Origin: a bacterium
GTDB taxonomy: Bacteria; Actinomycetota; Acidimicrobiia; Acidimicrobiales; Bin134
Direction of reading: 5' to 3'
Assembly (NCBI GenBank): GCA_028819295.1
Contig: JAPPMA010000015.1
Coordinates: 1-64,000, forward strand
Length of the DNA: 64,000 nucleotides
Shown: positions 10,678 to 50,234 of the stretch, in pieces
Layout: each line of letters starts with the position of its first letter
How positions within the stretch are numbered: position 1 is the first letter of the stretch
Position numbers and translations under genes: made by a program
The notes under the pieces: model-generated
Database searches by the model: none
Told to the model about the DNA's origin: nothing
Seen by the model: the letters and a program-made list of their open reading frames with translations, nothing else

Positions 10678-11562
10678 ATGTATCCGTCCCGGCGCTTCGG
10701 CTACAGCGACGACCCCTGGTTCCGCATCGGAACGTTCCCGGTCTCCACCACCGTGTTTGTGGTCGGCCTCGGCGTGGTCTCGATGTTCATCTGGGGGATT
10801 GAAGGCCGTTTTGGTCCCTTGTTCCGCGAGTTGGTACTGGTTTCAGAGAACTACCAACTCGGAAGCGTGGTGGAAGGCGACATCTGGCGGCTGGTCACCT
10901 GGCCGATCCCCAACGAACCCCACTTCTGGACGATCGTCCTGTTCGCCATCTTCTACATGCTGGGCTCCCAGATTGAATCCCTCCTTGGACGCTGGCGGTT
11001 CGCATTCTTTCTCGCTGCCCTCACGCTTATTCCTGCCGTCATTGTGACTGCGGTGGAGGCGGTGGCCGGTGTCAACGGCTACGTGGCTGGCCTGCGAATG
11101 GTGGAAGTCGGAGTGTTGGTGGCCTTTGCCGCTCAGTACGCCCAGGCCAGATTCTGGCCCGGCATTCCCGGGTGGGTGATCGCCGTCGTCATCGTCGGGC
11201 TCGATGCCATCCAAGCCTTGGGCAACCGCAACTGGTTTGCCCTGATCGTTTTGGCCTGCACGGTGGCCGTGGCGCTGCTCGGCATTCGAGCATTCGGCTA
11301 CGCAACCAATCTCACGTGGATTCCGAAGCTGTCCCTGGCGTCGAGTTCCGGTCAGTCTTCGGCCAGCACTCGCCCTTCGAGGTCTCGTCGCCGGGGTCGA
11401 GGCCGGGATCATCTGCGGGCAGTCCGGCCCCGCGACGAGTCGGTCACCCCCGAGACCGACGCTTTGCTCGACCAAGTGGCCAGCCAAGGTCTGGACAGCT
11501 TGAGCCGCAAACAGCGCAAGCAACTCGAAGCCCACGCCCGCCGCCTGCGCCGCCGCCGGTGA
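10678..11562 (+). CDS. Rhomboid-like multi-pass membrane protein, apparently non-proteolytic
   Basis: 294 residues with about six hydrophobic segments. EGDIWRLVTWPIPNE and IVLFAIFYMLGSQIESLLG correspond to the loop and helix that open the rhomboid fold (xxWRxxT/S...). The catalytic GxSG and the downstream catalytic His are not present; the corresponding stretch reads GLRMVEVGVLVAFAAQYAQ. It therefore looks like a pseudoprotease. The C-terminus has a Ser/Arg-rich linker, then TPETDALLDQVASQGLDSL and a very basic end, matching a small helical tail often found on bacterial rhomboids. It starts 2 bases after the sulfatase stop. Confidence 0.7.
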   Translation: MYPSRRFGYSDDPWFRIGTFPVSTTVFVVGLGVVSMFIWGIEGRFGPLFRELVLVSENYQLGSVVEGDIWRLVTWPIPNEPHFWTIVLFAIFYMLGSQIESLLGRWRFAFFLAALTLIPAVIVTAVEAVAGVNGYVAGLRMVEVGVLVAFAAQYAQARFWPGIPGWVIAVVIVGLDAIQALGNRNWFALIVLACTVAVALLGIRAFGYATNLTWIPKLSLASSSGQSSASTRPSRSRRRGRGRDHLRAVRPRDESVTPETDALLDQVASQGLDSLSRKQRKQLEAHARRLRRRR

Positions 11563-11645: not shown

Positions 11646-12869
11646 ATGGCACAAGTGGGCGATGACATCATCGTGCTGGACAGTGTCTACAAGATCTTCG
11701 GACCCCAACCCCGCGGAAGGGCGTTCGAGCTCGCCAGCTCCGGGATGGGCAAAGACGAGGTGCAGGCCGAGACCGGGCATGTGGTGGGCCTCCACAACGT
11801 GTCGTTCTCGGTGCCCAGGGGAGAGATATTCGTGGTGATGGGCCTGTCGGGGTCGGGCAAGTCCACCGCCATCCGCACCGTCAACAAGCTCCACGACATC
11901 ACTGCGGGCACCGTCACCGTCGAGGGCACCGACGTTCAGACCCTTGAGGGCTCAGAGCTTCAGGCATTCCGCAGGAGCCAGATGGGGATGGTCTTCCAGC
12001 ACTTCGCACTGTTCCCCCATCGCAACGTGATCGACAACGTGAGCTACGGCCTCAAGGTCCAGGGCGTCGACAAGGACGCCCGCAGCGAAGCGGCCATGCG
12101 GGCCTTGGCGTTGGTCGGACTCGACGCCTATTCGCAGAACATGCCGTCGGAGCTTTCCGGCGGTATGCAGCAGCGGGTGGGCTTGGCCCGAGCGCTGGCG
12201 GCGGACCCCGAAATACTGCTGATGGACGAGGCCTTCAGCGCCCTAGACCCGCTGATCCGCCGCCAGATGCAAGACGAGCTGCTGGAAATCCAGAGCGAGC
12301 TCCAAAAGACCATCCTGTTCATCACCCACGACCTCAACGAGGCGCTCCGCATCGGAGACCGGGTGTGCATTATGAAGGATGGCGCTGTCGTGCAGATCGG
12401 CACGCCTGAGGAGATTCTCACCGAGCCGGCCACCGGGTATGTGGCTGAGTTTGTGCAGGATGTCGACCAAGGCCGCGTCATCCAGGTACACGAGGTCATG
12501 CAAGTGCCGGCACCCGTTGCCGCCAGCGCCACCATCGCCGAAGCCCTCAGTGCTATGGGTGACCGCATCGGCGCGTTCGTGTTGGATGCCGCAGGTGCGC
12601 CCACCCATCTGCTGACCGTCGAAGACGCGGCCCGGGCTGCCAGCATGGGTACCACTGATCTGGCTCGTGCGCTTCGCACCGACTTTGAGCGCTGCGGCCC
12701 CGACGACCGCCTCAACGAGGTATACGCCGCCGCTGGCCGCGGCCTTTCAATCGCGGTGTGCGACGAGTCGGGTGTGCTGGTCGGGAATCTCGACCCCCGT
12801 CACATCATGGAAGAAATGGGCCGGGTCGAGAACCTGATCGATGGTTTCGAGAGAGAGGTATTCCTGTGA
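11646..12869 (+). CDS. proV: Glycine betaine/proline ABC transporter ATP-binding protein
   Basis: 407 residues. Walker A is GLSGSGKST, the signature LSGGMQQRVGLARAL, and Walker B ILLMDEAFSALDP; the last is the distinctive ProV/OpuAA wording. The C-terminal 120 residues (VHEVMQVPAPVAAS onward and the DESGVLVGNLDPRHI block) are tandem CBS modules that sense ionic strength in OpuA. A strong GGAAGGAG ribosome-binding site precedes the ATG. The stop overlaps the GTG of the permease gene. The expected role is compatible-solute uptake energised from the cytoplasmic face. Confidence 0.93.
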   Translation: MAQVGDDIIVLDSVYKIFGPQPRGRAFELASSGMGKDEVQAETGHVVGLHNVSFSVPRGEIFVVMGLSGSGKSTAIRTVNKLHDITAGTVTVEGTDVQTLEGSELQAFRRSQMGMVFQHFALFPHRNVIDNVSYGLKVQGVDKDARSEAAMRALALVGLDAYSQNMPSELSGGMQQRVGLARALAADPEILLMDEAFSALDPLIRRQMQDELLEIQSELQKTILFITHDLNEALRIGDRVCIMKDGAVVQIGTPEEILTEPATGYVAEFVQDVDQGRVIQVHEVMQVPAPVAASATIAEALSAMGDRIGAFVLDAAGAPTHLLTVEDAARAASMGTTDLARALRTDFERCGPDDRLNEVYAAAGRGLSIAVCDESGVLVGNLDPRHIMEEMGRVENLIDGFEREVFL

Positions 12870-15199
12870 GCCTGCTGGCCCAGTCGGAGTCCCCCGGTAT
12901 TGCCGACAACGAGGTCCTCGACCAGTGGACGATTCCGTTCGGCGAATGGGTCAAGCAGATGGTCAACTGGATCGACCTCAACCTCGGCTGGCTGCTCGGC
13001 ATCATCGAGTGGCCATTTACTTTCCTCTTCCGCAACTTTGTTGATGGTCCCAACCACCATCCCTGGTGGGAAATCACCGACATGCCGTGGATCGCGGTTT
13101 GCCTCATCTTTTTCGTGATCGGCACGCTGGCCCGCAACGTGAAAGTCGGCGGCTTCGTCGCGTTGGCGTTGGCCGGCTGCGGACTACTCGGCATTGAATA
13201 CTGGGATGACACAGCGTTGACAGTGGGCATGATCATTGTCGCCGTCGCACTCTGCGCCCTTATCGGCATTCCCCTCGGTGTCCTTTGTGGCCGATTCGAT
13301 GGGGTGTGGAATGCCGTGCGTCCTGTGCTCGACGCTATGCAGGTTGTGCATGCGTTTGTGTACATGCTGCCGGTCATCTTCTTCTTCGGTATCGGTACCG
13401 AACCAGCCACGATGGTCACCATGGTGTTTGCCCTGCCGCCGCTAATTCGTCTCACCAACCTTGGAGTCAGACAGGTGCCCGCGGATGTAGTGGAGGCCAG
13501 TCGGGCCTACGGGGCCCCCGAGTGGCGCGTGCTGCTAGATGTCCAGCTTCCATTGGCGCGTCCTGCAATCATGACCGGACTCAACCAGACGTTGCTGTTG
13601 TCTATCTCCATGCTGGGTATCGCTGCCATCATGGGTGCGGGCGGATTGGGCTTGCAGGTTTTTCGGGCGGTGCAGTCACTAGACGTTGCTCTAGCCGCTT
13701 CGAGCGGTCTGGCTCTGTTCATGGTCGCAGTGGTGCTAGACCGCATCTCTCAGACTGAGGAGAGTGATGGTCAGAACCTCTTTACACGCATCCGCCGGGC
13801 TTGGGCCCATCGTCGCGATCCCGAAGCACTGCTTCCCCAGGCATCGTCGATCGGCGTCGTGGCCAAGACGAGAAGCCACCCGGCACCACTGTCGGCAGCC
13901 GAGCGCCGCTTCTTGACAATCGTTGCAGCCGGCGCCCTCATTGCTGTTGTTGCGGTGTTCTTGCCATGGGGGAGTGACTCGGGAAGGATTTCCGGATATG
14001 CCAGGTTGATTGACACCGGGCGATACGAATACGTCGAAGTTGACCCCGTGAGGTCCCCTGGGATGGTCGAGCTTCAGGAAGCGAGTGTCGATCCGCCCGC
14101 CGAACGTGCCCAAGAGATTGCCGTGCTCGATGCCCAGATCAATGCGGTGGTTGTAGCAGCAGGGGCTGAGGGGGTAACAGACGAAGAGACGCTAGCGGTC
14201 ATTGCCGATATTGAGAATGACATTGCGTTGCTTTCCAATCCTCTGGCAGGTCGCAGCTATCGCGGTTTGGATGCAACCGGTGGGTCCTTCTACGGCATCA
14301 TGGTGCTCGGTTTCGCTGTGTTGATTCTTGCTGCGGTTGTGACCAATCTGAGACGACTAGGTGGAGATATTCGCCTGTTTGGGTCAAATGGCGTCGTGGT
14401 GCTTGCCGTTGGGTCCCTGGCTGCGGCGATCGCCTATGTCTGGGCGCCGGCAGCATCGGCCAACGTCACACATAACATGGGAGTCGGTCCTTGGGTCGCC
14501 ATTGTGGGCGGGGTGGTAGCGACCCTGGGCGCACTTGCCTGGCTTCGGGAGGCACCCTACGCAGCCCGCACCCCCCTGAGAGCTGGCGTCTCGTACAGCC
14601 AAATCGGTGTGGTCGCCGTTGTTGCTGCGCTGATTGTCATAGCTGGGTTCTCGGGATGGTCCATCGATCAACGCGTCGAGTCCGTTGTTTCACCAGAACT
14701 CCAGGCAGAAGTCTCGGCTTTGGAGCAGCAAGCAGAAAACAGCGACGATCCTGCTGTCGAAGCTCGCATAGCTCAAGAGATCATTGCGCTTTACAGCGCG
14801 GCTCAGCGAACCGAAAAGATTGTCACAGACGGCTTTTCTGGCGACGGCAGCAAGTACGGCTATCTCGCCATCGCCTTCGGCACCATTGGCGTCGTTTGTG
14901 TGCTGCCCGCGGCCGGGGTTTTCGGTAGCAATGAGAGAAAGCGACGGCGCTGGAACGCGGTGGTCGCCGGCGTCGGCGTCAGTCTGATGGTTGTAGCGTC
15001 GGCGTGGATCGCTTCTCTGCTCAGGGTGGCCGATATCAAATTCTCCAGCGGCGCAGGCGCCTTTTTGTGTCTGGTCGCGGGATTCCTCCTCATGGCGAGT
15101 ACGGCCGGTGTGCTGATGAAGTTCGGCCGATCACAGGTGTATGTCTCTGTCGATGAGCCAGAAGTGGCGCCGGAAGGAGCAACGGCCGACATCGGGTAA
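12866..15199 (+). CDS. proW: Glycine betaine/proline ABC transporter permease with long C-terminal extension
   Basis: 777 residues from the GTG at 12866, whose TG is shared with the proV stop (GTGA). The first 320 or so residues are a ProW permease, with the EAA loop VEASRAYGAPEWR and the usual IMGAGGLG. Normal ProW/OpuAB proteins are 280-350 residues. Here another 450 residues follow, with about six extra predicted membrane segments and two soluble Glu/Ala-rich stretches (one near VELQEASVDPPAERAQ, one near ELQAEVSALEQQAEN). I do not recognise this extension. It may be a fused accessory membrane domain. No frameshift separates it from the permease. Confidence 0.9.
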   Translation: MSLLAQSESPGIADNEVLDQWTIPFGEWVKQMVNWIDLNLGWLLGIIEWPFTFLFRNFVDGPNHHPWWEITDMPWIAVCLIFFVIGTLARNVKVGGFVALALAGCGLLGIEYWDDTALTVGMIIVAVALCALIGIPLGVLCGRFDGVWNAVRPVLDAMQVVHAFVYMLPVIFFFGIGTEPATMVTMVFALPPLIRLTNLGVRQVPADVVEASRAYGAPEWRVLLDVQLPLARPAIMTGLNQTLLLSISMLGIAAIMGAGGLGLQVFRAVQSLDVALAASSGLALFMVAVVLDRISQTEESDGQNLFTRIRRAWAHRRDPEALLPQASSIGVVAKTRSHPAPLSAAERRFLTIVAAGALIAVVAVFLPWGSDSGRISGYARLIDTGRYEYVEVDPVRSPGMVELQEASVDPPAERAQEIAVLDAQINAVVVAAGAEGVTDEETLAVIADIENDIALLSNPLAGRSYRGLDATGGSFYGIMVLGFAVLILAAVVTNLRRLGGDIRLFGSNGVVVLAVGSLAAAIAYVWAPAASANVTHNMGVGPWVAIVGGVVATLGALAWLREAPYAARTPLRAGVSYSQIGVVAVVAALIVIAGFSGWSIDQRVESVVSPELQAEVSALEQQAENSDDPAVEARIAQEIIALYSAAQRTEKIVTDGFSGDGSKYGYLAIAFGTIGVVCVLPAAGVFGSNERKRRRWNAVVAGVGVSLMVVASAWIASLLRVADIKFSSGAGAFLCLVAGFLLMASTAGVLMKFGRSQVYVSVDEPEVAPEGATADIG

Positions 15200-15212: not shown

Positions 15213-16418
15213 TTTGGTGTAGGGTGTGGCCTCTAGGCGGGTTGGTGCGCTCTGAGGCGGGCCAAGCTTGACTTCAATTGGAGGGTTACCAATGAGAGAG
15301 CGCAGCTATTGGCGAGTTTTGCTGGCCATTCTTCTGGCCTTCGGGCTGGTTGTGGCGGCTTGTGGCAATGATGATGATGACGAGGCTCCGGCCGCGCCTG
15401 CGGAGGAGGCTCCGGCCGCGCCTGATGACGAGGCTCCGGCCGCGCCTGCGGAGGAGGCTCCGGCCGACGCGATGCCTGGTGAGGGTGTCAGCGTGACCAT
15501 GGCTCGGGCCGACTGGGCCACTGGTTATATGCAGGCGGCTATCTACCACCACCTGCTGGAAGAACTTGGCTATGACGTGAGCGAGCCTGCCGATATTGAG
15601 CTTGCGCCTTCGAACGCGTACGTGGCTATGGCTGAGCGCGAGTTCGATTTCTGGGCCAACTCGTGGTATCCGAACCACGACCCGTTCGTCGCGGGCGAGA
15701 TGCCCGATGGCTCTTTGGTGAGCGATCACGTGTCGAAGGTGGGCCTTGAGGCCGGGCGCGGCGGCATCGAGGGCTTGTTGACCAACAAGTCGCTGGTGGA
15801 AGAGCACGGCATCAGAACTCTTGATCAGCTCGTGGGAGACGAGGATCTGTTCCAGCTGTACGAGGCGGCCGACAAAGAGCCCGGCGATGGGGTGCTCCAG
15901 ATTTATGGGTGCCCCGAGGGCTGGGGGTGCAACCTGTTCATTGCCGGCCTGATTGAGGACAAGGGTTGGACCGGCAGGGTCCAGCAGGTTGAGGTGGGCG
16001 GCTACGACGCCACCTTCGCCGACGCAGTCGACCGCGCTGGCAGCGGCACCCCGTTCATCGCGTACACGTGGAGCCCGAGCTTCTATACGAACCACATCGG
16101 GCCTGGTGACCAGGCCATGTGGCTGTCGATAGACGGGGGTGCGCCCACCCTGCTCGGCACCGATGTCTGCACCGATGATCCGTGCAACCTCCTCATTACC
16201 GCTGACATCCAGGTGACGGCCAACAACGACTTCCTTGTCGAGAACCCGGCCGCGGCGAGGCTGCTGGAGCTGGTGGAGATCAGCGTGGTCGACATCGCAC
16301 TGCAGAACGCGCGCTACGACACCGGCGGTGAGAACACCACCGCTGACGTCAACCGCCACGCCGCCGAGTGGATCGCCGACAACCGCGACACAGTCGACGC
16401 CTGGCTAGCAGAAGCCCG
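15213..16418. repeat. 1,206-bp perfect direct repeat, copy A
   Basis: Matches 18121-19326 with no difference that I can see by eye. Sense and antisense translations over most of it are also identical in the two copies. It starts 14 bases after the proW stop and carries the untranslated leader, ribosome-binding site, signal peptide and OpuAC domain. It ends inside the codons following WLAEAR, where the two proteins diverge abruptly. The offset between copies is exactly 2,908 bases. Confidence 0.97.
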
Positions 16419-17223
16419 CAACGCCAGCAGCTTCACCCCCGCACCCGCACCAGAGCCGGTGCCGACCGACACACCTTCATCAGATCGTGGTCTTTGCCAA
16501 GAGGGAATGACGCTGAGAAACGGCGACCACTGCAGTTATTCCAGCGGCAGCACCAGGATTGCAATGAAAATCGACAACGGATGCATCATTTTCGGAGAGG
16601 ACAGCAACATCGGAGGACGTATATTTGTCGGCGGCAGTAGCATGTGCGGAGGAGGTATCAATCTGGTTGTTCCCGAGGGACCACTTCGCAGCGAGAGAAA
16701 CGCCGATGGCTCTGTTAGCATTAGCAGCCTCCCCGCTTCGGGACCAGCATCCACTTGGGAAACAACGTTCCCGGCACCCACGTCGGCAACGCCCACGCCG
16801 GTGCCGACCAGTTCTCCCACGCCAACGCCGACGGCGACTTCCTCGGCAGATCAAGTATCGATAACCGAATTCAACGGAGCCAGCCTCTCAACTAGGTTTT
16901 CCATGTTTGAGGCGGGGAGGATTGCGAAGTGTCGAGTGGGCCTAGTTCTGCCGCGAGACGGTTTCTGCATTGATCCCGATGCAGATTCGATAGACCCGTC
17001 GAACAGAGTTCGGTTCTTGGTGGCCCACCTATCTGACGGCTCTGGCTTGGTAATGGGAGAGGCATGGGTAGTTGACCGATCATCCGGCACGATCACACTC
17101 ATCGGCACAAACGTGGAATTCGGCTGGATTTCTGGGATTGTTTTCCAATCGCGCACAAGCGTGGACTATGGCAATATCACCGCCGAGAGGCAGGGTGAGA
17201 ACTGGGTCATAACGGGTCTTTAG
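15292..17223 (+). CDS. proX: OpuAC-type (glycine betaine) substrate-binding lipoprotein with unrecognised C-terminal domain
   Basis: 643 residues. GGAGGG at 15280 fixes the ATG at 15292. The signal has lipobox VVAAC followed by an acidic NDDDDE run and an EAPAAP-type low-complexity linker. Residues 70-375 are an OpuAC/ProX domain (VSVTMARADWATGYM, FDFWANSWYPNHDPFV). Its position after proVW marks it as the transporter's binding protein. Residues 376-643 differ completely from the duplicate at 18200. A Pro/Thr linker leads to a module with LCQEGMTLRNGDHCSY and three further cysteines, then a long Thr/Pro linker, then a second small domain with KCRVGLVLPRDGFCID. These look like secreted beta-rich modules; I do not recognise them. 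Confidence 0.88.
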   Translation: MRERSYWRVLLAILLAFGLVVAACGNDDDDEAPAAPAEEAPAAPDDEAPAAPAEEAPADAMPGEGVSVTMARADWATGYMQAAIYHHLLEELGYDVSEPADIELAPSNAYVAMAEREFDFWANSWYPNHDPFVAGEMPDGSLVSDHVSKVGLEAGRGGIEGLLTNKSLVEEHGIRTLDQLVGDEDLFQLYEAADKEPGDGVLQIYGCPEGWGCNLFIAGLIEDKGWTGRVQQVEVGGYDATFADAVDRAGSGTPFIAYTWSPSFYTNHIGPGDQAMWLSIDGGAPTLLGTDVCTDDPCNLLITADIQVTANNDFLVENPAAARLLELVEISVVDIALQNARYDTGGENTTADVNRHAAEWIADNRDTVDAWLAEARNASSFTPAPAPEPVPTDTPSSDRGLCQEGMTLRNGDHCSYSSGSTRIAMKIDNGCIIFGEDSNIGGRIFVGGSSMCGGGINLVVPEGPLRSERNADGSVSISSLPASGPASTWETTFPAPTSATPTPVPTSSPTPTPTATSSADQVSITEFNGASLSTRFSMFEAGRIAKCRVGLVLPRDGFCIDPDADSIDPSNRVRFLVAHLSDGSGLVMGEAWVVDRSSGTITLIGTNVEFGWISGIVFQSRTSVDYGNITAERQGENWVITGL

Positions 17224-17429
17224 GAGGGGACTTATATACGAGAGTGCCATGCGTTGGCCATATGGGCAGCGGGGCTTTTCGCTTCGATGGTAAGCGGCTT
17301 CTCGGCTCAGGGCTTATGTGATGATGCCGCCCAGCATTCGCTGCTCAGGCTGGTCGGCGCGAGAACTGTGAGGTTCCCATACTCAATCCAGGAGGTGGGT
17401 CATGGCGTCACTCGCTCCTCAGCCCCATT

Positions 17430-17633
17430 GTGCAGATGATGGCTGGCGGGGCGTCGTTGCCTGGTGCTGGTGGCGGCACGCTGGGGAACTGGGTGCGCCG
17501 GGATCGCGCTGAGCGGGCCGGCGGGCTGAATTCCGATGAGCGGGCCGAGTTGGAGCGGTTGCGCAGGGCGAACGCGGCTTTGCGCATGGAGCGTGATGTT
17601 CTCAAACAATCGGTGGTTCTTTGGGTGAACTAG
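17430..17633 (+). pseudogene. IS3-family OrfA fragment
   Basis: The C-terminal part of an IS3-family OrfA, with [14 protein letters not shown], the leucine-zipper-like stretch [20 protein letters not shown] and the end QSVVLWVN. The N-terminal helix-turn-helix is missing: the frame upstream has no family character, and no terminal inverted repeat can be recognised to the left. The OrfB frame overlaps its last 13 bases, the usual arrangement for programmed frameshifting. Confidence 0.8.
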
Positions 17634-18016
17634 GCAACGCGGTGACCGCAGAGTTCATCGCGGCCCAGAGGACCGATCACGGTGTGCCTCATGCGGTGGC
17701 GTGTCGGGCGTTGGGTGTGGCGCCCTCGACTTTCTATAAGCACCTCGACCGGTCTCTGACCGATCAGCAGGTCTGCCGCCAGGCCACGGACGCCGAGGTG
17801 AAGCGGGCGTTCGACCGCTTCCAGGGGACCTACGGGTCTCCCAGAGTGCGCCCCCAGCTGCGCCGCGACGGGATGTCGGTGTCGAAGAAGACGGTGGAGG
17901 CGTCGTTGGCCCGCCAGGGTCTGTGCATCCGCCCCAAAAAGAAGAAGGGCCTGACCGGCCAGGGCCCTGCCCATGCGGCCCCCGAGGACCTGCTGTCGTG
18001 GCTAGATGGTGCGTAA
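17621..18016 (+). pseudogene. IS3-family OrfB (transposase) fragment, truncated before the rve domain
   Basis: 131 residues. AEFIAAQRTDHGVPHAVACRALGV and STFYKHL are the HTH_21 region of an IS3 transposase, and YGSPRVRPQLRRDGMSVSKKTVE is the block just before the integrase core. It stops after QGLCIRPKKKKGLT plus about 20 unrelated residues, so the DDE catalytic domain is absent and the element cannot move itself. An inverted repeat TTCGGGGC/GCCCCGAA at 18044-18051 and 18068-18075 follows; it may be a residual end or a hairpin. The remnant lies between the two copies of the 1,206-bp repeat. Confidence 0.8.
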
Positions 18017-18120
18017 ATTGAACTGAGCGGGATCAAAGGAATCTTCGGGGCACACCGTTAAGGGCGGGCCCCGAATCAGTCATGAGCGTTCTTCCCGGCG
18101 CTTCTAGCATTCATGCCTGG

Positions 18121-19326
18121 TTTGGTGTAGGGTGTGGCCTCTAGGCGGGTTGGTGCGCTCTGAGGCGGGCCAAGCTTGACTTCAATTGGAGGGTTACCAA
18201 TGAGAGAGCGCAGCTATTGGCGAGTTTTGCTGGCCATTCTTCTGGCCTTCGGGCTGGTTGTGGCGGCTTGTGGCAATGATGATGATGACGAGGCTCCGGC
18301 CGCGCCTGCGGAGGAGGCTCCGGCCGCGCCTGATGACGAGGCTCCGGCCGCGCCTGCGGAGGAGGCTCCGGCCGACGCGATGCCTGGTGAGGGTGTCAGC
18401 GTGACCATGGCTCGGGCCGACTGGGCCACTGGTTATATGCAGGCGGCTATCTACCACCACCTGCTGGAAGAACTTGGCTATGACGTGAGCGAGCCTGCCG
18501 ATATTGAGCTTGCGCCTTCGAACGCGTACGTGGCTATGGCTGAGCGCGAGTTCGATTTCTGGGCCAACTCGTGGTATCCGAACCACGACCCGTTCGTCGC
18601 GGGCGAGATGCCCGATGGCTCTTTGGTGAGCGATCACGTGTCGAAGGTGGGCCTTGAGGCCGGGCGCGGCGGCATCGAGGGCTTGTTGACCAACAAGTCG
18701 CTGGTGGAAGAGCACGGCATCAGAACTCTTGATCAGCTCGTGGGAGACGAGGATCTGTTCCAGCTGTACGAGGCGGCCGACAAAGAGCCCGGCGATGGGG
18801 TGCTCCAGATTTATGGGTGCCCCGAGGGCTGGGGGTGCAACCTGTTCATTGCCGGCCTGATTGAGGACAAGGGTTGGACCGGCAGGGTCCAGCAGGTTGA
18901 GGTGGGCGGCTACGACGCCACCTTCGCCGACGCAGTCGACCGCGCTGGCAGCGGCACCCCGTTCATCGCGTACACGTGGAGCCCGAGCTTCTATACGAAC
19001 CACATCGGGCCTGGTGACCAGGCCATGTGGCTGTCGATAGACGGGGGTGCGCCCACCCTGCTCGGCACCGATGTCTGCACCGATGATCCGTGCAACCTCC
19101 TCATTACCGCTGACATCCAGGTGACGGCCAACAACGACTTCCTTGTCGAGAACCCGGCCGCGGCGAGGCTGCTGGAGCTGGTGGAGATCAGCGTGGTCGA
19201 CATCGCACTGCAGAACGCGCGCTACGACACCGGCGGTGAGAACACCACCGCTGACGTCAACCGCCACGCCGCCGAGTGGATCGCCGACAACCGCGACACA
19301 GTCGACGCCTGGCTAGCAGAAGCCCG
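18121..19326. repeat. 1,206-bp perfect direct repeat, copy B
   Basis: Identical to 15213-16418. The left boundary is abrupt: the bases before it (tail of the IS3 remnant region) do not match the end of proW. The right boundary is inside the coding sequence, where copy A encodes Asn-Ala-Ser and copy B enters the BMP-domain fusion. Confidence 0.97.
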
Positions 19327-20272
19327 AGCCGCTACCGAATACACGCTCGCGCCTCCGCCGGCACCAACGCCTTTCCGTGTGGCGGTAGTGGCGCCGAGCG
19401 CGAGCAACGACTTGGCGTTCACTCAGAGTATTTTCGACGCGGTGACCGCCCTCGAGAATGCCGGACACATCAGTGAATTTGCCATCACCGACGGCACCTT
19501 GATCGTGGAGGACGCAGGCGCCGCCCTTCGGGGCTATGCCGAAGATGGCTACGACCTGGTCATCGCCCACGGTTCCCAGTACGGCGGCCCGCTCCAGGAG
19601 ATCGCACCGGACTTCCCCGACGTATCGTTCATCTGGGGCACCGCCGTTGACACCTTCGGCATTCCCAATGTGAACTCCTACTCGGTTTGCTCCGATTTGG
19701 GCGGATATGTCAACGGTGTGGTCGCCGCACAGCTCACAGAGAGCAACGTGATCGGCGTGGTCGGCCCACTCGAAGTGGGCGACGCCAAGCTCTATGTCGA
19801 CGGGTTCAAAGCTGGAGCCGAAGCTCAGAATCCCGACGTCGAGGTCAAAATCGTCTACACCGGCTCGTTCGGTGATGTGGCGCTGGCCGCAGAAGCCGCC
19901 GAATCGCACATCTCCGCCGGGGCCGACGTGCTGACCGGCTCGGCTCAGATGGTGGTGGGCGCCACCGGAGTGGCCCAGCAGAACGATGTGCTGTGGTTCG
20001 GCACCCAGGCCAACCAGACTGCCCTGGGCGAGGACATCGTGGTGGCTTCGCAGGTGTACCGCTGGGAGGTCATCCTCTCTGAGGTGGTCGATCAGGTCAA
20101 GAGTGGCACTTTGGGCGGGACTGAATACATCATGACCTTCGAAGGCGGAGGACTAGACATTCAGTTCAACCCGGCCATGGACATCCCCGCTGACGTAATA
20201 ACCTCAGCCGAGGCGACCATCGCTGGCCTGTCCGACGGATCGATCTCAACTGGTCAGCCGTGTAGCTCCTGA
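18200..20272 (+). CDS. Chimeric lipoprotein: OpuAC (betaine-type) domain fused to BMP-family nucleoside-binding domain
   Basis: 690 residues. Residues 1-375 are identical to the ProX-like protein at 15292: lipobox VVAAC, acidic linker and OpuAC domain. After a short Ala/Pro linker a second complete binding-protein fold begins at about residue 392 with FRVAVVAPSASNDLAFTQS and continues through SYSVCSDLGGYVNGVVAA and TGSAQMVVGATGVAQQND. This is the BMP/PnrA/Med family that delivers purine nucleosides to an ABC importer. The next gene, 14 bases on, is the matching two-domain ATPase, so the BMP half is likely the native partner and the OpuAC half an acquired front end. Whether both ligand sites function is unknown. 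Confidence 0.88.
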   Translation: MRERSYWRVLLAILLAFGLVVAACGNDDDDEAPAAPAEEAPAAPDDEAPAAPAEEAPADAMPGEGVSVTMARADWATGYMQAAIYHHLLEELGYDVSEPADIELAPSNAYVAMAEREFDFWANSWYPNHDPFVAGEMPDGSLVSDHVSKVGLEAGRGGIEGLLTNKSLVEEHGIRTLDQLVGDEDLFQLYEAADKEPGDGVLQIYGCPEGWGCNLFIAGLIEDKGWTGRVQQVEVGGYDATFADAVDRAGSGTPFIAYTWSPSFYTNHIGPGDQAMWLSIDGGAPTLLGTDVCTDDPCNLLITADIQVTANNDFLVENPAAARLLELVEISVVDIALQNARYDTGGENTTADVNRHAAEWIADNRDTVDAWLAEARAATEYTLAPPPAPTPFRVAVVAPSASNDLAFTQSIFDAVTALENAGHISEFAITDGTLIVEDAGAALRGYAEDGYDLVIAHGSQYGGPLQEIAPDFPDVSFIWGTAVDTFGIPNVNSYSVCSDLGGYVNGVVAAQLTESNVIGVVGPLEVGDAKLYVDGFKAGAEAQNPDVEVKIVYTGSFGDVALAAEAAESHISAGADVLTGSAQMVVGATGVAQQNDVLWFGTQANQTALGEDIVVASQVYRWEVILSEVVDQVKSGTLGGTEYIMTFEGGGLDIQFNPAMDIPADVITSAEATIAGLSDGSISTGQPCSS

Positions 20273-20286
20273 CCGAATAACCGAGT

Positions 20287-21843
20287 ATGAATACTGACTC
20301 GGCAGCGCCGAGGCCGGCACCGATGCTGGAGATGCGCGGTATTACCAAGCGCTTCCCCGGTGTGGTGGCCAACGAGGACGTTGACTTCACGGTACTGCCG
20401 GGTCAGGTTCATACCCTTCTGGGAGAGAATGGAGCAGGCAAGAGCACGCTGGTGAAGATCCTCTACGGGCTCTACCAGCCCGACGAGGGGTCGATTACCT
20501 TCGATGGCTCCCCAGTGAACATCGATTCGCCCTCAGTGGCGATTCATACTGGCATCGGCATGATCCACCAGCACTTCATGCTGGTGGACACCCTGACCGT
20601 GGCCGAGAACGTGGCCCTGGGACTGGGCACACCGCTCAGCCTGACCAACCTCCAGCCGATTCGCCGGCGTATTCGAGAAGTATCTGAGGAGTTCGGCCTG
20701 CACGTCGATCCCGATGCCTATATCTGGCAGATGGCGGTGGGAGAGCGACAGCGGGCCGAGATCGTCAAGGCGCTGTACCGAAACGTGAGACTGCTGGTGC
20801 TGGACGAGCCCACCGCGGTGCTGACCCCGCCCGAGGTTTCCGATTTGTTCGTCACCCTCCGACAGCTCAGCTCCGATGGAAGAGGGCTGGTGTTCATCTC
20901 TCACAAGCTGAACGAGGTGATGGAGATCTCCGACGAGATCACGGTGCTGCGTGACGGCAAGGTCTCGGGGCGCACCACCCCGGAAGAATCCAGCAGGGAG
21001 TCGCTGGCCATGATGATGGTGGGGCGCCCGGTGGAGTTCACCCGCACCCTCGCCGAGCAGGAGCCGGGCGATCCCAAGCTGGAGGTGAAAAGCCTCCAGG
21101 TTCGGGGCGACCGCGAGGAACTGGCGGTGCGCGATGTGAACATCGACGTGCGGGCCGGTGAGATCGTGGGCATCGTGGGAGTGTCGGGCAATGGGCAGCG
21201 GGAATTGGCCGAGGCCATTGTCGGTTTGCGGGAGACCGAGTCGGGCGAAATCTCTATCGACGGCAATCTGGTGAAAACCCCCACCCCCAAGCAGGTGCGG
21301 TCGATGGGCTTGGCCTATGTGCCCGAAGAGCGCATGAAGTACGGCAGCATCGGCGACTTCACCGTGGCCGAGAACCTGATTTTGGCCGACTACGACCAGC
21401 CGCCCTACGCGCGGAGCGGGCTGCTGAGCCTTCGCACTATCGAGTCCCGCAGCGAACAGTTGGTCAGCGACTACTCCATACGCACGCCGAGCACTGAGAC
21501 CCTTACCCGCAAACTGTCGGGAGGCAACATTCAAAAGGTGGTGATTGCCCGGGAGTTCAGCGGCGAGGCCGATGTGCTGCTGGTGGCCCAGCCGACCAGG
21601 GGAGTCGACATCGGGGCGGCCGAGTACATTCACGAGCAGCTGCTCACCCAGCGGTCTCAAGGCCGGGCCATTTTGCTGATCAGCGAGGATTTGGACGAGG
21701 TGATGGCGCTGTCCGACCGGCTGGTGGTGATGTACGAGGGATCGGTGATGGGCCGATTAGACCGGGCCGATGCCACCGTCGAGCAGGTGGGCCTGCTCAT
21801 GAGCGGCGTGGGCGAGCCCGAGAGCGCAGCAACAGCAGGATAA
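20287..21843 (+). CDS. Nucleoside/simple-sugar-type ABC transporter ATP-binding protein (BmpE/YufO-like, tandem ABC domains)
   Basis: 518 residues with two ABC modules. The first has Walker A GENGAGKST, signature VGERQRAEIVKAL and Walker B LLVLDEPTAVLTPPE. The second is degenerate in Walker A (GVSGNGQREL) but has LSGGNIQKVVIAREF and VAQPTRGVDIGA, as in RbsA/MglA/YufO proteins. It directly follows the BMP-type binding protein. Permeases normally follow this gene but here a VapBC module and tRNA-Sec do. A matching permease pair lies at 57009-59074. The expected role is to energise uptake of nucleosides such as guanosine or inosine. Confidence 0.9.
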   Translation: MNTDSAAPRPAPMLEMRGITKRFPGVVANEDVDFTVLPGQVHTLLGENGAGKSTLVKILYGLYQPDEGSITFDGSPVNIDSPSVAIHTGIGMIHQHFMLVDTLTVAENVALGLGTPLSLTNLQPIRRRIREVSEEFGLHVDPDAYIWQMAVGERQRAEIVKALYRNVRLLVLDEPTAVLTPPEVSDLFVTLRQLSSDGRGLVFISHKLNEVMEISDEITVLRDGKVSGRTTPEESSRESLAMMMVGRPVEFTRTLAEQEPGDPKLEVKSLQVRGDREELAVRDVNIDVRAGEIVGIVGVSGNGQRELAEAIVGLRETESGEISIDGNLVKTPTPKQVRSMGLAYVPEERMKYGSIGDFTVAENLILADYDQPPYARSGLLSLRTIESRSEQLVSDYSIRTPSTETLTRKLSGGNIQKVVIAREFSGEADVLLVAQPTRGVDIGAAEYIHEQLLTQRSQGRAILLISEDLDEVMALSDRLVVMYEGSVMGRLDRADATVEQVGLLMSGVGEPESAATAG

Positions 21844-21889: not shown

Positions 21890-21905
21890 GCATATGTAGA
21901 TATGC
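21890..21905. promoter_or_regulatory. Candidate VapB operator
   Basis: Inverted repeat GCATAT-GTAG-ATATGC just before the antitoxin start, followed by another CATATG at 21911. Ribbon-helix-helix and AbrB-type antitoxins commonly bind such palindromes to autoregulate their operons. This is a positional inference. Confidence 0.45.
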
Positions 21906-21913
21906 TTTTCCAT

Positions 21914-22150
21914 ATGCGAACTACGATTATTTTGCCCGATGGGTTGGCCGAACGGGCCAAAAGGCACGCTGCCGAGCGAGGATGCACTTTTACCTCGCTG
22001 GTGATAGACGGCCTCCAACTAATGTTGCAGAGCACGTCTGGCGATTCGCCGCCGCCTCTGCCCATCTACCTCGGCGACGGGCAGATGCTTGTTGACATAA
22101 CCGACAGAGAAGCCCTCTGGGAAACGCTCGACGCCGACGGCTGGCGATGA
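21914..22150 (+). CDS. vapB: VapB-type antitoxin (ribbon-helix-helix)
   Basis: 78 residues from the ATG at 21914 (MRTTIILPDGLAERAKRHA); an ATG at 21902 would add four residues (MLFH) and lies nearer to the AGGAG at 21884. The opening strand plus helices are those of a ribbon-helix-helix DNA-binding protein. The C-terminal part (LVDITDREALWETLDAD) is acidic and would neutralise the toxin. The stop overlaps the toxin start as ATGA. Confidence 0.8.
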   Translation: MRTTIILPDGLAERAKRHAAERGCTFTSLVIDGLQLMLQSTSGDSPPPLPIYLGDGQMLVDITDREALWETLDADGWR

Positions 22151-22581
22151 TCCTTCCTGATGTCAACATCCTTGTCTATGGGTTTCGGAGCGACTTGCCT
22201 CAACATCCGAGCAGCCGGGCATGGCTTGAGAGTGTTCGCTCCGGACCTGAGCCGCTAGGGCTTGCCGATGCGGTTCTCACCAGCTTTCTGCGGCTGGTGA
22301 CGAATCGAAGGGTCTTTGCCGACGCTGCGACGATCTCCGATGCCCTCTCGTTCACGTCAGCGCTGCGGGAGACGCCCAATTGCCGGAACCTGGTGCCTTC
22401 CAACGCAACCTGGGAGCAATTCTCGGTGTTCGCCTCAAACGACCCATACATTGTCGGCAACCATGTCCCCGACGCCTGGCTCGCGGCTCTTGCCATGTCC
22501 AACGGCGCCCGGCTCGCCACCGCCGATGCTGGATTCGCCCGATTCAAGGGCCTGTCCTGGTTCAACCCCCTCCTCGCCTGA
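22147..22581 (+). CDS. vapC: VapC-type PIN-domain toxin
   Basis: 144 residues. MILPDVNILVYGFR provides the first PIN-domain acidic residue (Asp5), ADAVLTSFLRLVTNRRVF the second region, and DAWLAALAMSNGARLATADAGFARF the C-terminal acidic pair. VapC proteins are Mg2+-dependent ribonucleases that often cut tRNA or rRNA. Its start overlaps the antitoxin stop. Directly downstream are the right-hand direct repeat (22637) and tRNA-Sec. Confidence 0.88.
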   Translation: MILPDVNILVYGFRSDLPQHPSSRAWLESVRSGPEPLGLADAVLTSFLRLVTNRRVFADAATISDALSFTSALRETPNCRNLVPSNATWEQFSVFASNDPYIVGNHVPDAWLAALAMSNGARLATADAGFARFKGLSWFNPLLA

Positions 22582-22680: not shown

Positions 22681-22773
22681 GGAGGTGTCTGAGTACCTGG
22701 TGGGCTCCCCCGCCTTCAAAGCGGGTGGGACGGGCGATCCCCGTCCGGCGGGTTCGATTCCCGTCCACCTCCG
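22681..22773 (+). tRNA. selC: tRNA-Sec (anticodon UCA)
   Basis: A 93-base cloverleaf with a long acceptor and a long variable arm. Acceptor GGAGGTG pairs with CACCTCC and is followed by discriminator G. The anticodon arm is CCCGC-CTTCAAA-GCGGG with anticodon TCA. The variable arm GGACGGG-CGAT-CCCGTCC has a 7-bp stem, and the T arm is GCGGG-TTCGATT-CCCGT. The 8-nt stretch between T stem and discriminator matches the 8/5 plan of bacterial tRNA-Sec, although the eighth pair is T-C here. CCA is not encoded. It reads UGA as selenocysteine together with SelA and SelB encoded at 48.9-52.0 kb. Confidence 0.95.
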
Positions 22774-24381
22774 CTATCCGGCGGCCTTGCGTGCAGGCAT
22801 GGCGATGGCATTGAAGAGCGACGGCGCATCCTGAGCCCTTCCCCACTGTTGAAGGAGTTGATCGGCTGCCCGGGCGATCGCAGTGGCATCCAGGTGCTGC
22901 CCGGCTTTTGCGAGAGCGTCCCGCGCGTCCCTCTCGACTCCGGCGCGGTGGTGATGAAGAATGGCAGCGAGGTCAATGCGCTGGAGCAGCTTCTTCGTCA
23001 CCGGCCGCTTGGCGTCGGCGAAGAGCAACGACTTGAGGAGGAGGGCTGCGGCTTCACTGGTCAGCGCACTGAGGATGAGGGCTGCCTCGGCTGCTGATTC
23101 GCACGGCAGGAAGTATGACGTGTCGTCAAACAAGACGGGCCGGTCCTCGCTCGGACCCACGAGTTGGAACCTAGGGGCCTTGTGGAGGCCCGAGGCTGCA
23201 ACCTTCCATGGCGCGAATGTGTAGGGCCCGATGCCGAACATTGAGAAGGCTGCTCGGCTTCGGTATATCGACGACTTGCGGGCAGCGAACCGTTCCGCAT
23301 GGACCTGCAAGTAGTTCCAGAGCTTGGGTGCTGTGTACCGGAGGCTCCTCGTCTCATCGGCCAGCGACCGCTGAGTCACGACGACGTAGCGCTCCGGGGC
23401 CCGGCCTGCGTTGACATCTGAGCCCTTTAGGAGGGGATACACCCAGTCGCCTTCAACCTCGACGGCCTCACCTAACGCATTTTGGAGTTTGCCGTCCTCA
23501 TTGGGGCGAAGCTCCATGACGGCAGCCATATCGTGCTTGACGCCCTGTCGCCACTCCACCGGCGACGAGCCGTCATATGGCCGAGATGCCGCGTGAGCAT
23601 CCACATCGGCAACGAGAGCACCATCTACCAATCCCATAGTGCTCGCGGGACAGCCTGCATCAAGCGACTCGAAGACTTGGCATCGGTAGTTGTGGCTAGT
23701 CCCATCGAGCCGGACAGCGAAGAGGCAGGCGTCGACTGCTGCCCCGAACGACTTCTTCGCGTCGATTCGCCACAGGAACGAATCAGCCACATGCAGGTCC
23801 AGGTGGGCTGCCAGCGTGAGAACCCGGCGCGCGACGGAAGTCTTGCAAAGGAGGGCGACGGTCGGCTCCTCTCGACGCAGTTCCGTGAGCAGCCGCATCC
23901 AGATGTACTCGGCAACGTCGAAGTTCGACTCGCCCGTCAGCGCGTCGATCCCCCGCACAGAACGCAGGTTCGCACGGTCGGGGACTTGTTTTGAGCCCAT
24001 GGCGCCGAGGTCGGACAACGTGACCCATGGCGGATTCCCGAGGACAAGCAGTGGCCCATCCATCTCCCACTGGAGCTTGCCCAAATCGTGCCGGAACATA
24101 TCGCCCACCTCAACTCGCCACGAAACGTCCTTGGCGGCAGAGTGGTCGAGGAGACGACGCGCGACGGCAGCATGGGTTGGCTGTATCTCGACTCCTAGCA
24201 TTTCGATGCGCGGCTCGAGGACCGAGGCCGCGGCGAGCATGAAACTCCCCTCACCACATGTCGGTTCCAGTACCCGGCGCGTTCCACGCTGAATCGTTGC
24301 TAGTACTTGAGCGCACTCGACTGCGAGTTCCCGAGGCGTCTGGAAATCGCCGAGTTCCTTACGAGAAGAGGTCTTGGACAC
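22774..24381 (-). CDS. N6-adenine DNA methyltransferase (restriction-modification type)
   Basis: About 535 residues. Motif I is VLEPTCGEGSFMLAA and the catalytic motif IV is NPPWVTLSD, typical of gamma-type N6-adenine methylases; the rest would hold target recognition. I chose the GTG at 24381 because AGGAAGGG stands 7 bases before it; the frame is open to an ATG at 24441. It overlaps the end of the upstream gene by about 20 bases, so the two are coupled. The stop codon immediately abuts the 3' end of tRNA-Sec. With its neighbour it likely forms a type II restriction-modification system. Confidence 0.85.
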   Translation of the reverse strand: MSKTSSRKELGDFQTPRELAVECAQVLATIQRGTRRVLEPTCGEGSFMLAAASVLEPRIEMLGVEIQPTHAAVARRLLDHSAAKDVSWRVEVGDMFRHDLGKLQWEMDGPLLVLGNPPWVTLSDLGAMGSKQVPDRANLRSVRGIDALTGESNFDVAEYIWMRLLTELRREEPTVALLCKTSVARRVLTLAAHLDLHVADSFLWRIDAKKSFGAAVDACLFAVRLDGTSHNYRCQVFESLDAGCPASTMGLVDGALVADVDAHAASRPYDGSSPVEWRQGVKHDMAAVMELRPNEDGKLQNALGEAVEVEGDWVYPLLKGSDVNAGRAPERYVVVTQRSLADETRSLRYTAPKLWNYLQVHAERFAARKSSIYRSRAAFSMFGIGPYTFAPWKVAASGLHKAPRFQLVGPSEDRPVLFDDTSYFLPCESAAEAALILSALTSEAAALLLKSLLFADAKRPVTKKLLQRIDLAAILHHHRAGVERDARDALAKAGQHLDATAIARAADQLLQQWGRAQDAPSLFNAIAMPARKAAG

Positions 24382-25015
24382 CGTCGACCCTTCCTGCGCT
24401 CGCGATTGCGTGGCCATACTGAAGCCGCCACTGAAGGGCATTGCTGATTGTGATGAAGCCCTGTGTCGGGGGGTCGCTGAGAACTCGCTCCGCCAAGGCC
24501 ATGCGACCGATTTCGTCTAGCGGCAGAGTTCGGTCCTCCATGAAACCAACGAGATCTTCGGCATTCCCGCCGCGGTCGAGTATCTCGGTGATTCCCCTCG
24601 TCGTCTGGTAGTCGCCGGTCCTCGACCGGTCGATGAAAACCGCGTGGCGAACATCGATTGCCGCAGACTGGGTCTCGTGAGCGTCGGTCTTCTCGTAAAC
24701 GAACACGAGCAGGCCGTAGCCCAAACCGAAGATCTTCTGCGACGCGTCGCGGAACGGACACGATGACTGCGGTTGTTTGACGAAAGTCGCTTTGAGATCA
24801 ACCCCAAGCTCCGGGAAGTCAATCCCACGAGCTGCGATTCCAGGCTCATACGCGTACCGCCCTATGAGGAACTCGTTGAATCTCGCCTCCACCCAGGTGC
24901 CCAGCGCCTTGCCATCTGTTGTGCCGAATAATTCGGTGACCGGCGCGTCGCCAAGCGACTCCGCGAACTCAGCAGCCGCGGCCTTCAAGCCATTGAGGTC
25001 GAGTGAGCTTGGCAT
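24359..25015 (-). CDS. Probable type II restriction endonuclease
   Basis: 218 residues, no confident family match. GIDFPELGVDLKATFVK has the spacing of a PD-(D/E)xK nuclease core (acidic residue, then DLK), preceded by a helix containing WVEARFNEFL that could carry the first catalytic Glu. The position directly upstream of, and overlapping, a DNA adenine methylase is the classic arrangement for the cognate endonuclease. Either ATG 25015 or GTG 25018 can start it; GGTGGA lies just before. A MutH/Sau3AI-like enzyme is a reasonable alternative description. Confidence 0.65.
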   Translation of the reverse strand: MPSSLDLNGLKAAAAEFAESLGDAPVTELFGTTDGKALGTWVEARFNEFLIGRYAYEPGIAARGIDFPELGVDLKATFVKQPQSSCPFRDASQKIFGLGYGLLVFVYEKTDAHETQSAAIDVRHAVFIDRSRTGDYQTTRGITEILDRGGNAEDLVGFMEDRTLPLDEIGRMALAERVLSDPPTQGFITISNALQWRLQYGHAIASAGRVDGVQDLFS

Positions 25016-25196
25016 CACTCCACCCTAACGCTGCTATGTGACACCAGGCTTGACTCACCTGCGGTTGTCAGCATGGGCGTTCGCAGTGGATATCGCCGGT
25101 AGGCTCAGGTTGTGACCGTCTCGGTCTCGGCAGGGGGCACATGGGCGAATCAGAGCAGACTCATGGGTGCCGGGATTCCACCTCCTCTGAAGTGAA

Positions 25197-26108
25197 ATGA
25201 AGACACGCGTTGCTTTGAGGGAGCTTGAGAACTTCGTGGCTGTCGCGGAGTGCGGATCGGTGACTGAGGCTGCCGCGGTGGTGGGCATCTCGCAGCCGGG
25301 GCTGTCTGCTTCGATCCGCAACTTGGAGCGGGTGCTGGGGGTTCGCCTGCTGGTGCGCCACCGCGGTCGGGGAGTGTCGTTGACCCCGGAGGGGGATCTG
25401 CTGATGGCCGAGGCTCGGGCCACCCTGTCGCGCGCCGGCGAGCTGGAAGCCCGCATGTCGGCGGCGATTTCTGACGACTCGGGGCGAGTTCTGGTCGGGT
25501 CACTGGTCACCGTGGCGCCCATCGTCACACCATCGCTGGTCCGCCGGTTTCGCGAGCAGCATCCCGGCATTGCCGTGGAGATCCGCACCGGCACTCAAGA
25601 CGAGCTGCTGGCCTGGCTTCGCACCGGCGCCGTACACGCGGCCATCACCTACGACATCGAGCTGGGACGGGAGGTGGACTTCGAGCGCGTTCTCGACATC
25701 GAGGCCCACGCGGTGATCAACGCCTCACACCGCCTCGCCGACCACGCGGTGATCGACCTCGAAGCCCTTGCGGGGGATCCCTACATTCTCCTCGACCTCC
25801 CCTTGAGCCGTGAGTACTTCATGTCGCTGTTTTTGGCCACCGGCATCGCCTATCACCCCGCAGCCCGTCACGCCGACATCTCCCTGGTTCGCACACTTGT
25901 GGGCAACGGGTTCGGGTATTCGCTGGTCAACCTGCTGCCTGCCACCGACATCGCCCAAGACGGCAGCCGCGTCGTCTACGTCCCCCTGCGCAGCGAGCTC
26001 CCGTCGCTGGGGCTGGGCCTCGCGCGCCGATCCGACGACAAGCCCCCCCGAGCCCTCGAGACCTTCGTGGACTTCGCGCGGTCAGCGCTGGTGCTTCCCC
26101 GGCAATAG
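25197..26108 (+). CDS. LysR-family transcriptional regulator
   Basis: 303 residues. The N-terminal winged helix reads LRELENFVAVAECGSVTEAA, then GISQPGLSASIRNLERVLG and VSLTPEGDLL, the standard LTTR DNA-binding domain. Residues 90-300 are the periplasmic-binding-like effector domain. It lies upstream of, and on the same strand as, the transporter/catabolic run that starts at 26312, with an AT-rich 203-base gap between, so it is the obvious candidate regulator of that run. The same-strand layout is less common than divergent for LTTRs. The effector is unknown. Confidence 0.9.
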   Translation: MKTRVALRELENFVAVAECGSVTEAAAVVGISQPGLSASIRNLERVLGVRLLVRHRGRGVSLTPEGDLLMAEARATLSRAGELEARMSAAISDDSGRVLVGSLVTVAPIVTPSLVRRFREQHPGIAVEIRTGTQDELLAWLRTGAVHAAITYDIELGREVDFERVLDIEAHAVINASHRLADHAVIDLEALAGDPYILLDLPLSREYFMSLFLATGIAYHPAARHADISLVRTLVGNGFGYSLVNLLPATDIAQDGSRVVYVPLRSELPSLGLGLARRSDDKPPRALETFVDFARSALVLPRQ

Positions 26109-26311
26109 ACCGCCGAACTCCGCCCACTCCAGCTTTCGTCGGCATCTTGAATAAACAAATGTGATGACTTACATATAAAATATCTCTTTGATTTATCCGC
26201 AGACTGAGCCTACGGTGCCGGAAATGCTCGGGTTCAAAACCCTGCGGGTGGTGAACCCAACCCCTGGTCGCTTCGTGCTGCCGGGAGGACGCGGAAGGGG
26301 AGATTCACGGC
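26109..26311. promoter_or_regulatory. AT-rich regulatory gap before the transporter/catabolic operon
   Basis: This 203-base gap contains a distinctly AT-rich patch at 26147-26205, unusual in this GC-rich window. Inside it is an inverted repeat ATGT-N8-ACAT at 26159-26174, of the size bound by LysR-type regulators, followed at once by TATAAA. GGAAGGGGAG shortly before the GTG at 26312 is the ribosome-binding site. The promoter and operator assignment is inference. Confidence 0.5.
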
Positions 26312-30715: not shown

Positions 30716-30759
30716 CCGGTTGCCCACCGAACCGCCGAGCTGACGGTCTGGAGCCAGGA

Positions 30760-31932: not shown

Positions 31933-31984
31933 ATGCCGTTCACCCCAGGCTTCATCTGATTCCGACCGCCGAAGGAGGCCGTCA

Positions 31985-33238: not shown

Positions 33239-33321
33239 GCGGGCGCGCACTCGAGACAGGCTCATGCCGGCGCATGAGCGGGCGCGCTCTCGAGACAGGC
33301 TCATGCCGGCGCATGAGCGGG
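33216..33321. repeat. 39-bp tandem repeat, 2.7 copies, each with a 20-base hairpin
   Basis: The unit begins GACAGGCTCATGCCGGCGCA and recurs at 33216, 33255 and 33294, differing at one position. Each copy holds a perfect 8-bp stem GCTCATGC-CGGC-GCATGAGC, at 33221-33240, 33260-33279 and 33299-33318. The stop codon of the flavoprotein gene is inside the first hairpin, and the RidA gene starts 23 bases after the last. The unit is in frame (39 = 13 codons) and would encode DRLMPAHERARTR-type repeats in another frame, but I see no real gene there. The hairpins may act in mRNA processing or attenuation, or as a protein-binding array. Confidence 0.95.
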
Positions 33322-33343
33322 GAAGGCGGCCGGGGGTGGGCCG

Positions 33344-37150: not shown

Positions 37151-37197
37151 CCCGCCAACACTCCGTCGCCGCCGAAAGGAGGGCTGCTGGCAGAGGC

Positions 37198-50179: not shown

Positions 50180-50234
50180 GCATCACAGTGGAACGCCACA
50201 ACCGGCTGGTGAACGCCGTTCGAGATGCTTGCCG

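Follow-up and report, generated by a model that had tools for sequence, protein, structure and literature searches.

Tandem substrate-binding domains have been reported for the ATP-binding cassette (ABC) importers GlnPQ (PMC8025302) and OpuA (PMC11065425), in which both domains feed one permease. Here, a locus is described that lies in a window of 64,000 nucleotides (contig C99, positions 1 to 64,000, of a contig of 78 kb) from the metagenome-assembled genome (MAG) G000 (3.56 Mb, 108 contigs, 95% complete). It harbors the ABC transporter genes proV and proW, followed by two lipoprotein genes, called A and B, which share one OpuAC binding module as head and carry different tails, that of gene B being a BMP binding domain. 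The use of several binding domains per importer resembles GlnPQ and OpuA, especially in the relatives G007, G015, G016 and G019, where OpuAC-OpuAC doubles are present. However, the domains of GlnPQ and OpuA are fused to the permease, whereas here they are separate lipoproteins, with the BMP head stemming from another importer.

The gene order proV-proW-binding protein is that of E. coli ProU (ProV-ProW-ProX; 1R9L/1R9Q). In contrast, E. coli ProX is a single stand-alone periplasmic protein, whereas here it forms a lipoprotein head in at least two genes that differ in their tails. ProW, too, departs from that of ProU by a long additional C-terminal part. BMP/PnrA importers (PF02608) are likewise composed of a bmp gene, an ATPase and two BPD_transp_2 permeases. 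Here, however, this operon is broken by an inversion, and bmp lacks a signal peptide of its own and is fused behind OpuAC. In the pilE/pilS and vlsE systems, recombination between homologous cassettes gives chimeric surface proteins, which is similar to the situation described below. Those systems diversify, whereas here the head is homogenised. Moreover, each copy is an open gene, and a machinery dedicated to the exchange was not observed. In the open-access literature, of which the coverage is incomplete, no account of the locus or of an OpuAC::BMP fusion was found.

The locus was retrieved from about 17 congeneric genomes (labels such as G001, G007 and G008 denote relatives), and G007 and G015 are single-contig chromosomes. 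The named congeners are metagenome-assembled Acidimicrobiia, some of which at least are presumably sponge symbionts. The comparison showed that the OpuAC module is near-identical within a genome while its flanks differ, and that between species it diverges with ProW and not with the BMP half. The module is thus quite probably a recombining front-end cassette common to neighbouring lipoprotein genes behind proVW, complemented by a BMP fusion born from an inversion. The locus would illustrate, across several species, how multi-domain binding proteins come about in bacteria.

The direct repeat and the genes it heads

The positions 15213-16418 (copy A) and 18121-19326 (copy B), both on the forward strand, form a maximal exact direct repeat of 1,206 bp (100% identity, offset 2,908), and outside of it both flanks are unrelated between the copies. 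The second-longest exact repeat of the whole contig has only 44 bp, so that the repeat is far beyond chance. In it, a 79-bp leader with a ribosome-binding site is followed by the ATG and the lipoprotein signal (..LVVAACGND); after these come an acidic Ala/Pro spacer and the complete OpuAC domain (PF04069, E=1e-26 and 94.3 bits in both copies, cut-off 21.2). The likely starts are ATG 15292 (A) and ATG 18200 (B) and not a TTG further upstream. The copies part ways in the first codon past 'WLAEA', and they are the only two full-strength copies in the genome.

Gene A (15292-17223, forward strand) is an open reading frame for a lipoprotein with the OpuAC head (PF04069) and an orphan tail of 268 amino acids (16417-17223, forward strand), in which a NASSFTPAPAPEP linker is followed by a Cys-containing, Thr/Pro-interrupted secreted module. 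For this tail no Pfam family was found at E<=10, and no credible homologue in the genomes of the genus or order, where weak matches fall mostly in the Thr/Pro-rich stretch. An AlphaFold2 single-sequence model of the tail was unusable (pLDDT 38). The G+C content is 0.556 in the tail and 0.633 in OpuAC. Gene B (18200-20272, forward strand) encodes the lipoprotein OpuAC::BMP fusion (PF04069 and PF02608), with a Bmp domain at E=3e-35 and 122 bits (cut-off 24.1), and this fusion is found in most congeneric genomes. An earlier note on this DNA had described, by eye, a perfect repeat that includes leader and ribosome-binding site, diverges within one codon and leads into different back ends; all of this is confirmed.

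Upstream, proV (11646-12869, forward strand) encodes a betaine/proline/choline-type ABC ATPase (TIGR01186, 353 bits, cut-off 326.6) and proW (12866-15199, forward strand) a permease (PF00528, E=1e-20) with a long C-terminal extension; the best NCBIfam matches of the latter are choline/ProW permeases, below cut-off. The OpuAC head aligns to E. coli ProX (1r9l) over its full length, and all three cage Trp residues are matched. The head reached 198.8 bits for the NCBIfam ProX equivalog, under the cut-off of 215, and is therefore ProX-like and not ProX proper. In ProX, the three aligned Trp residues form the ligand cage. On the basis of this ProX-like head with three cage Trp and of a ProV above its family cut-off, proVW-OpuAC likely serves to take up osmolytes of the betaine type.

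Between the copies, a partial gene remnant of an IS3-family transposase is present (17621-18016, forward strand; NF033516, E=2e-18, below cut-off), of which an 80% copy lies on contig C64. Further downstream, the sequence 18065-18120 directly upstream of copy B matches the sequence upstream of copy B in G008. A transposase-driven duplication as general cause was rejected, since G008, G016, G018 and G019 lack the remnant in the equivalent interval.

Homogenisation of the OpuAC head within genomes

Neighbouring OpuAC modules of the same genome are 100% identical in G000, 99.7% in G008 (three base differences), 99.4% in G007, 99.9% in G015 and 98.1% in G019. The copies of G016 and G018 reach about 84-92%. 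Outside of the module the identity drops to 25-65% (60-column windows), with unrelated leaders and back ends. Between species, OpuAC is 55-95% identical, the upper value being that of the nearest species pair and the other pairs reaching at most 92%, and third codon positions are 40-90% identical. In a tree the OpuAC copies group by genome, and at silent sites the copies are closer within a genome than across species. Purifying selection alone, keeping the heads identical without exchange, would suit a domain that binds a fixed ligand and has kept its three cage Trp. However, within the genome the copies agree at every third codon position, whereas species differ from each other at 10-60% of these positions, and OpuAC is among the locus segments diverging fastest, which makes this explanation hardly credible, and it was rejected.

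Two leader types are kept by position across species. The A-type leader 'MLxKKHWKVWLALFAVLALVVAACGN' adjoins proW, and the B-type leader 'MRERNLWRVLLAIFLVFGLVVAACGN' is present on the BMP fusion in G008, G016 and G000. In G008 and G019, an opposite-strand ureohydrolase-like gene (named by eye from motifs) lies between A and B, and the A-B interval of both genomes is 92% identical over 1,373 bp. The OpuAC modules flanking this interval are about 75% identical between G008 and G019 and essentially identical within each; of copy B of G019 the contig holds just the initial 158 bp, which match copy A at 100%. A conserved intervening gene with matched modules on its flanks indicates that the modules were overwritten on both sides while the gene stayed put. 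The duplication predates the species split, as seen from leaders that keep their positions and from the gene that G008 and G019 both retain between their copies. This is concerted evolution, by gene conversion or unequal crossing-over, and not a one-off duplication.

For G000 itself, a single recent tandem duplication in its lineage, with copy A later gaining the orphan tail and no continuing exchange, would account for an identity that spans all 1,206 bp including the leader, and for a copy A that bears a B-type leader like a fresh 5' copy of gene B. However, the A and B positions of G008 carry A- and B-type leaders and the pair has been homogenised separately, likewise in G007, G015 and G019. 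One duplication is therefore insufficient, and this scenario is rather unlikely. Of the very recent duplication or active gene conversion that had been proposed from the perfect identity, the recent homogenisation holds, whereas a one-off duplication does not, as five genomes show homogenised pairs. We estimate that homogenisation in G000 took place within roughly the last twentieth of the divergence to the nearest species, based on zero differences in 1,206 bp compared to 5% to that species.

Several points weigh against such a recombining cassette. The copies of G016 and G018 differ by 8-20%, which implies that exchange is intermittent. In G000 the copy behind proW bears the B-type leader, and the left edge of the tract (15213) falls where the leaders share no homology, so that the last event in G000 was more than a simple conversion. 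The data separate conversion only in part from repeated rounds of duplication and deletion. Furthermore, the perfect repeat in the assembly of the MAG G000 might conceal a mistake of assembly or a mixture of strains, and a two-headed function as well as a selection driven by the permease, both discussed below, are hypothetical.

An assembly artefact would mean that the assembler made the second copy or a join, or that the contig merges two strain variants. This would fit the fragmented state of G000 (108 contigs), the perfect repeat and the contigs of relatives that break at the module. Nevertheless, the single-contig chromosomes G007 and G015 contain the same kind of repeat with few mismatches, showing that the homogenised pattern is no short-read artefact; the copies of G008 differ at three bases, and both outer joins (the proW side and the BMP side) recur in relatives. 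An artefact is thus quite improbable. In or immediately next to the OpuAC module lie at least 15 contig ends from about 10 relatives, and the seven best assemblies have 13 contig ends at the module where by our estimate about one is expected. In G020, the contig with proW-OpuAC and that with BMP overlap by exactly 141 bp, ending at the edge of head and tail, and in G013 an exact overlap of 141 bp begins at the spacer; 141 is the k-mer size in the contig names of both. These overlaps are the branch points that arise where identical modules have different continuations, for two copies per cell and for a strain mixture alike. Short-read MAGs of these sponge symbionts should be used with caution here, as they break or collapse at the OpuAC locus.

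The B-type signal peptide and acidic spacer (15292-15471) recur at about 26 other places in G000 with roughly 40-70% identity, as the starts of other reading frames across the genome. Such a common lipoprotein leader could itself seed recombination.

Alternative tails and the link to ProW

Four continuations after OpuAC were observed: a stop (..AAG*), a second OpuAC, BMP, and the orphan tail, which is present only in G000. Two main linkers, ATEYT.. and NASGFTPAPAPEP.., join these parts, and each serves OpuAC-OpuAC as well as OpuAC-BMP joins, while the orphan tail follows the second kind (NASGFTPAPAPEP..). Since both linkers are used for both joins and the orphan tail stands behind the second, the linker is probably the site of tail exchange.

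In G001, G011 and G012, one gene composed of an A-type leader, OpuAC and BMP lies directly behind proW, and G021 has the same single-fusion arrangement up to the contig end. A BMP fusion right behind proVW, predicted earlier as the deletion product of the repeat, is therefore the actual, fixed arrangement in G001, G011 and G012 and, as far as its contig reaches, in G021. Recombination between A and B would yield this arrangement, although it may also represent the state before duplication. The relatives, named before as the way to find the ancestral arrangement, allowed both arrangements to be mapped. An ancestral state and a later deletion both fit the species tree (Bmp, ATPase and Rhom, the latter being a label of convenience for 10678-11562), in which (G011,(G016,G021)) is firm at 100/98 and the deep nodes have supports of 45-58.

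The earlier note further took the repeat for a domain-swapping switch. A phase-variable switch, in which recombination between the copies toggles the tail types, would be in line with direct repeats as substrates for deletion and with the product arrangement in G001, G011 and G012. This reading is abandoned as very improbable and a reversible switch was rejected, since a direct-repeat deletion is one-way, the relatives show fixed alternatives and not on/off states, the site harbors no recombinase but only the transposase remnant, and exact inverted repeats of at least 40 bp are absent from the contig. The contig overlaps of G013 and G020 mentioned above would agree with both states occurring in one clonal population, but they do not prove it.

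Among nine genomes, the nucleotide distance of OpuAC correlates with that of both ProW parts (rho 0.74 and 0.78; Mantel p at most 0.0005), whereas it does not correlate with that of Bmp (-0.19), ATPase (-0.06), ProV (0.12) or Rhom. Between G011 and G016, Rhom, Bmp and ATPase share 92-96% identity, compared to 65% for OpuAC and 65-76% for ProW, and G020 and G016 display the opposite pattern. These contrasts indicate that the two halves of the OpuAC::BMP frame have separate histories. ProW and OpuAC behave like one unit that is passed between lineages. Where a genome has a single copy, the linkage to ProW is enough for this; where copies stand in tandem, conversion would bring the allele into the second one as well. 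The C-terminal extension of ProW has more than 400 residues beyond the permease domain and is, by median distance, the most divergent part of the locus.

For the cassette favoured here, the following sequence of events may be envisaged. A module of acidic spacer and ProX-like betaine-binding domain would be swapped among neighbouring lipoprotein genes by RecA-type gene conversion and unequal crossing-over. Such exchange might be favoured or tolerated because every OpuAC would dock on one resident ProW, so that a new ProW-OpuAC allele would spread to the other copies. The products would be lipoproteins with the same betaine-binding head and different tails, and copy A of G000, with its orphan tail, would have acquired its B-type leader together with the head very recently. 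The fuller version, in which conversion matches all heads to the incoming ProW-OpuAC allele, tails are swapped and OpuAC::BMP couples two importers, is put forward tentatively, as a possibility to which we give less than even weight. It leads to a testable question of receptor-permease co-adaptation, namely whether a shared permease drives the homogenisation of paralogous heads.

Inversion and the BMP importer

An intact operon perm1-perm2-bmp-ATPase is present in G007, G015, G010 and G004, where bmp has its own lipoprotein signal. The gene order of G007 and G015 (' marks relative orientation) is sulfatase-rhom-[OpuAC-OpuAC-proV-proW]-SDR-NfeD-SelB'-SelA'-GS-ATPase'-bmp'-perm2'-perm1'-MinD. 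In G000, G008 and G001 it is sulfatase-rhom-[proV-proW-OpuAC]-bmp-ATPase-GS'-SelA-SelB-NfeD'-SDR'-perm2'-perm1'-MinD, which G011, G013 and G020 follow within the limits of their contigs. These gene orders show that one inversion of 27-37 kb (bmp to SDR) split the operon at the junction of perm2 and bmp, setting bmp in frame behind OpuAC. In the window, the segment that is inverted relative to G007 and G015, as judged by the gene order of G000, G008, G001, G013 and G020, has the approximate limits 19373-57000 and takes in a later island behind the tRNA-Sec gene. OpuAC also changed its place, from a position ahead of proV to one after proW, which is an additional change beside the inversion. The completeness of the operon suggests that the intact form is ancestral, and the inversion would be ancient.

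In G000 the ATPase gene (20287-21843, forward strand; two ABC domains, PF00005 twice) adjoins bmp, and the permeases of the BMP importer lie 36 kb away on the reverse strand, perm2 at 57075-57905 and perm1 at 57941-59074 (both PF02653; 85-95% and 93-95% identical to those of the intact operon). The inversion therefore joined two different transport operons. Thus, an in-frame receptor fusion of two importers was made at an inversion breakpoint, and recombination kept rewriting one half of the fused gene. The BMP fusion had been regarded as the own binding protein of the proVW transporter; it does stand behind proVW, whereas its BMP domain comes from a separate ABC importer. OpuAC::BMP would accordingly be a two-headed binding protein for two ABC importers. 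The top-scoring family of ATPase and BMP domain is a putative vitamin-B6 importer, far below cut-off.

Outside the genus, the top BMP relatives are mostly frames of single-domain size or BMP-BMP doubles. Other families of the order possess such double frames, e.g., G115:C65:7693-9453, G223:C126 and G275:C24, and the doubling of binding domains seems to be a wider habit of the order.

Within the inverted segment, tRNA-Sec (22681-22774) and SelA/SelB (48902-51962) constitute selenocysteine machinery. A toxin-antitoxin pair (21902-22581; VapC family, TIGR00028, 120 bits) lies between the BMP ATPase gene and tRNA-Sec and is missing from G008. Also missing from G008, whose tRNA-Sec directly meets sequence matching 37197, are the roughly 14.4 kb right after tRNA-Sec (22775-37196), likely a genomic island, with genes for an N6-methylase, a LysR regulator, polyamine-type ABC proteins, an amidohydrolase and an OYE-like enzyme. 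In G012, the methylase gene of this island is located directly behind the BMP ATPase gene.

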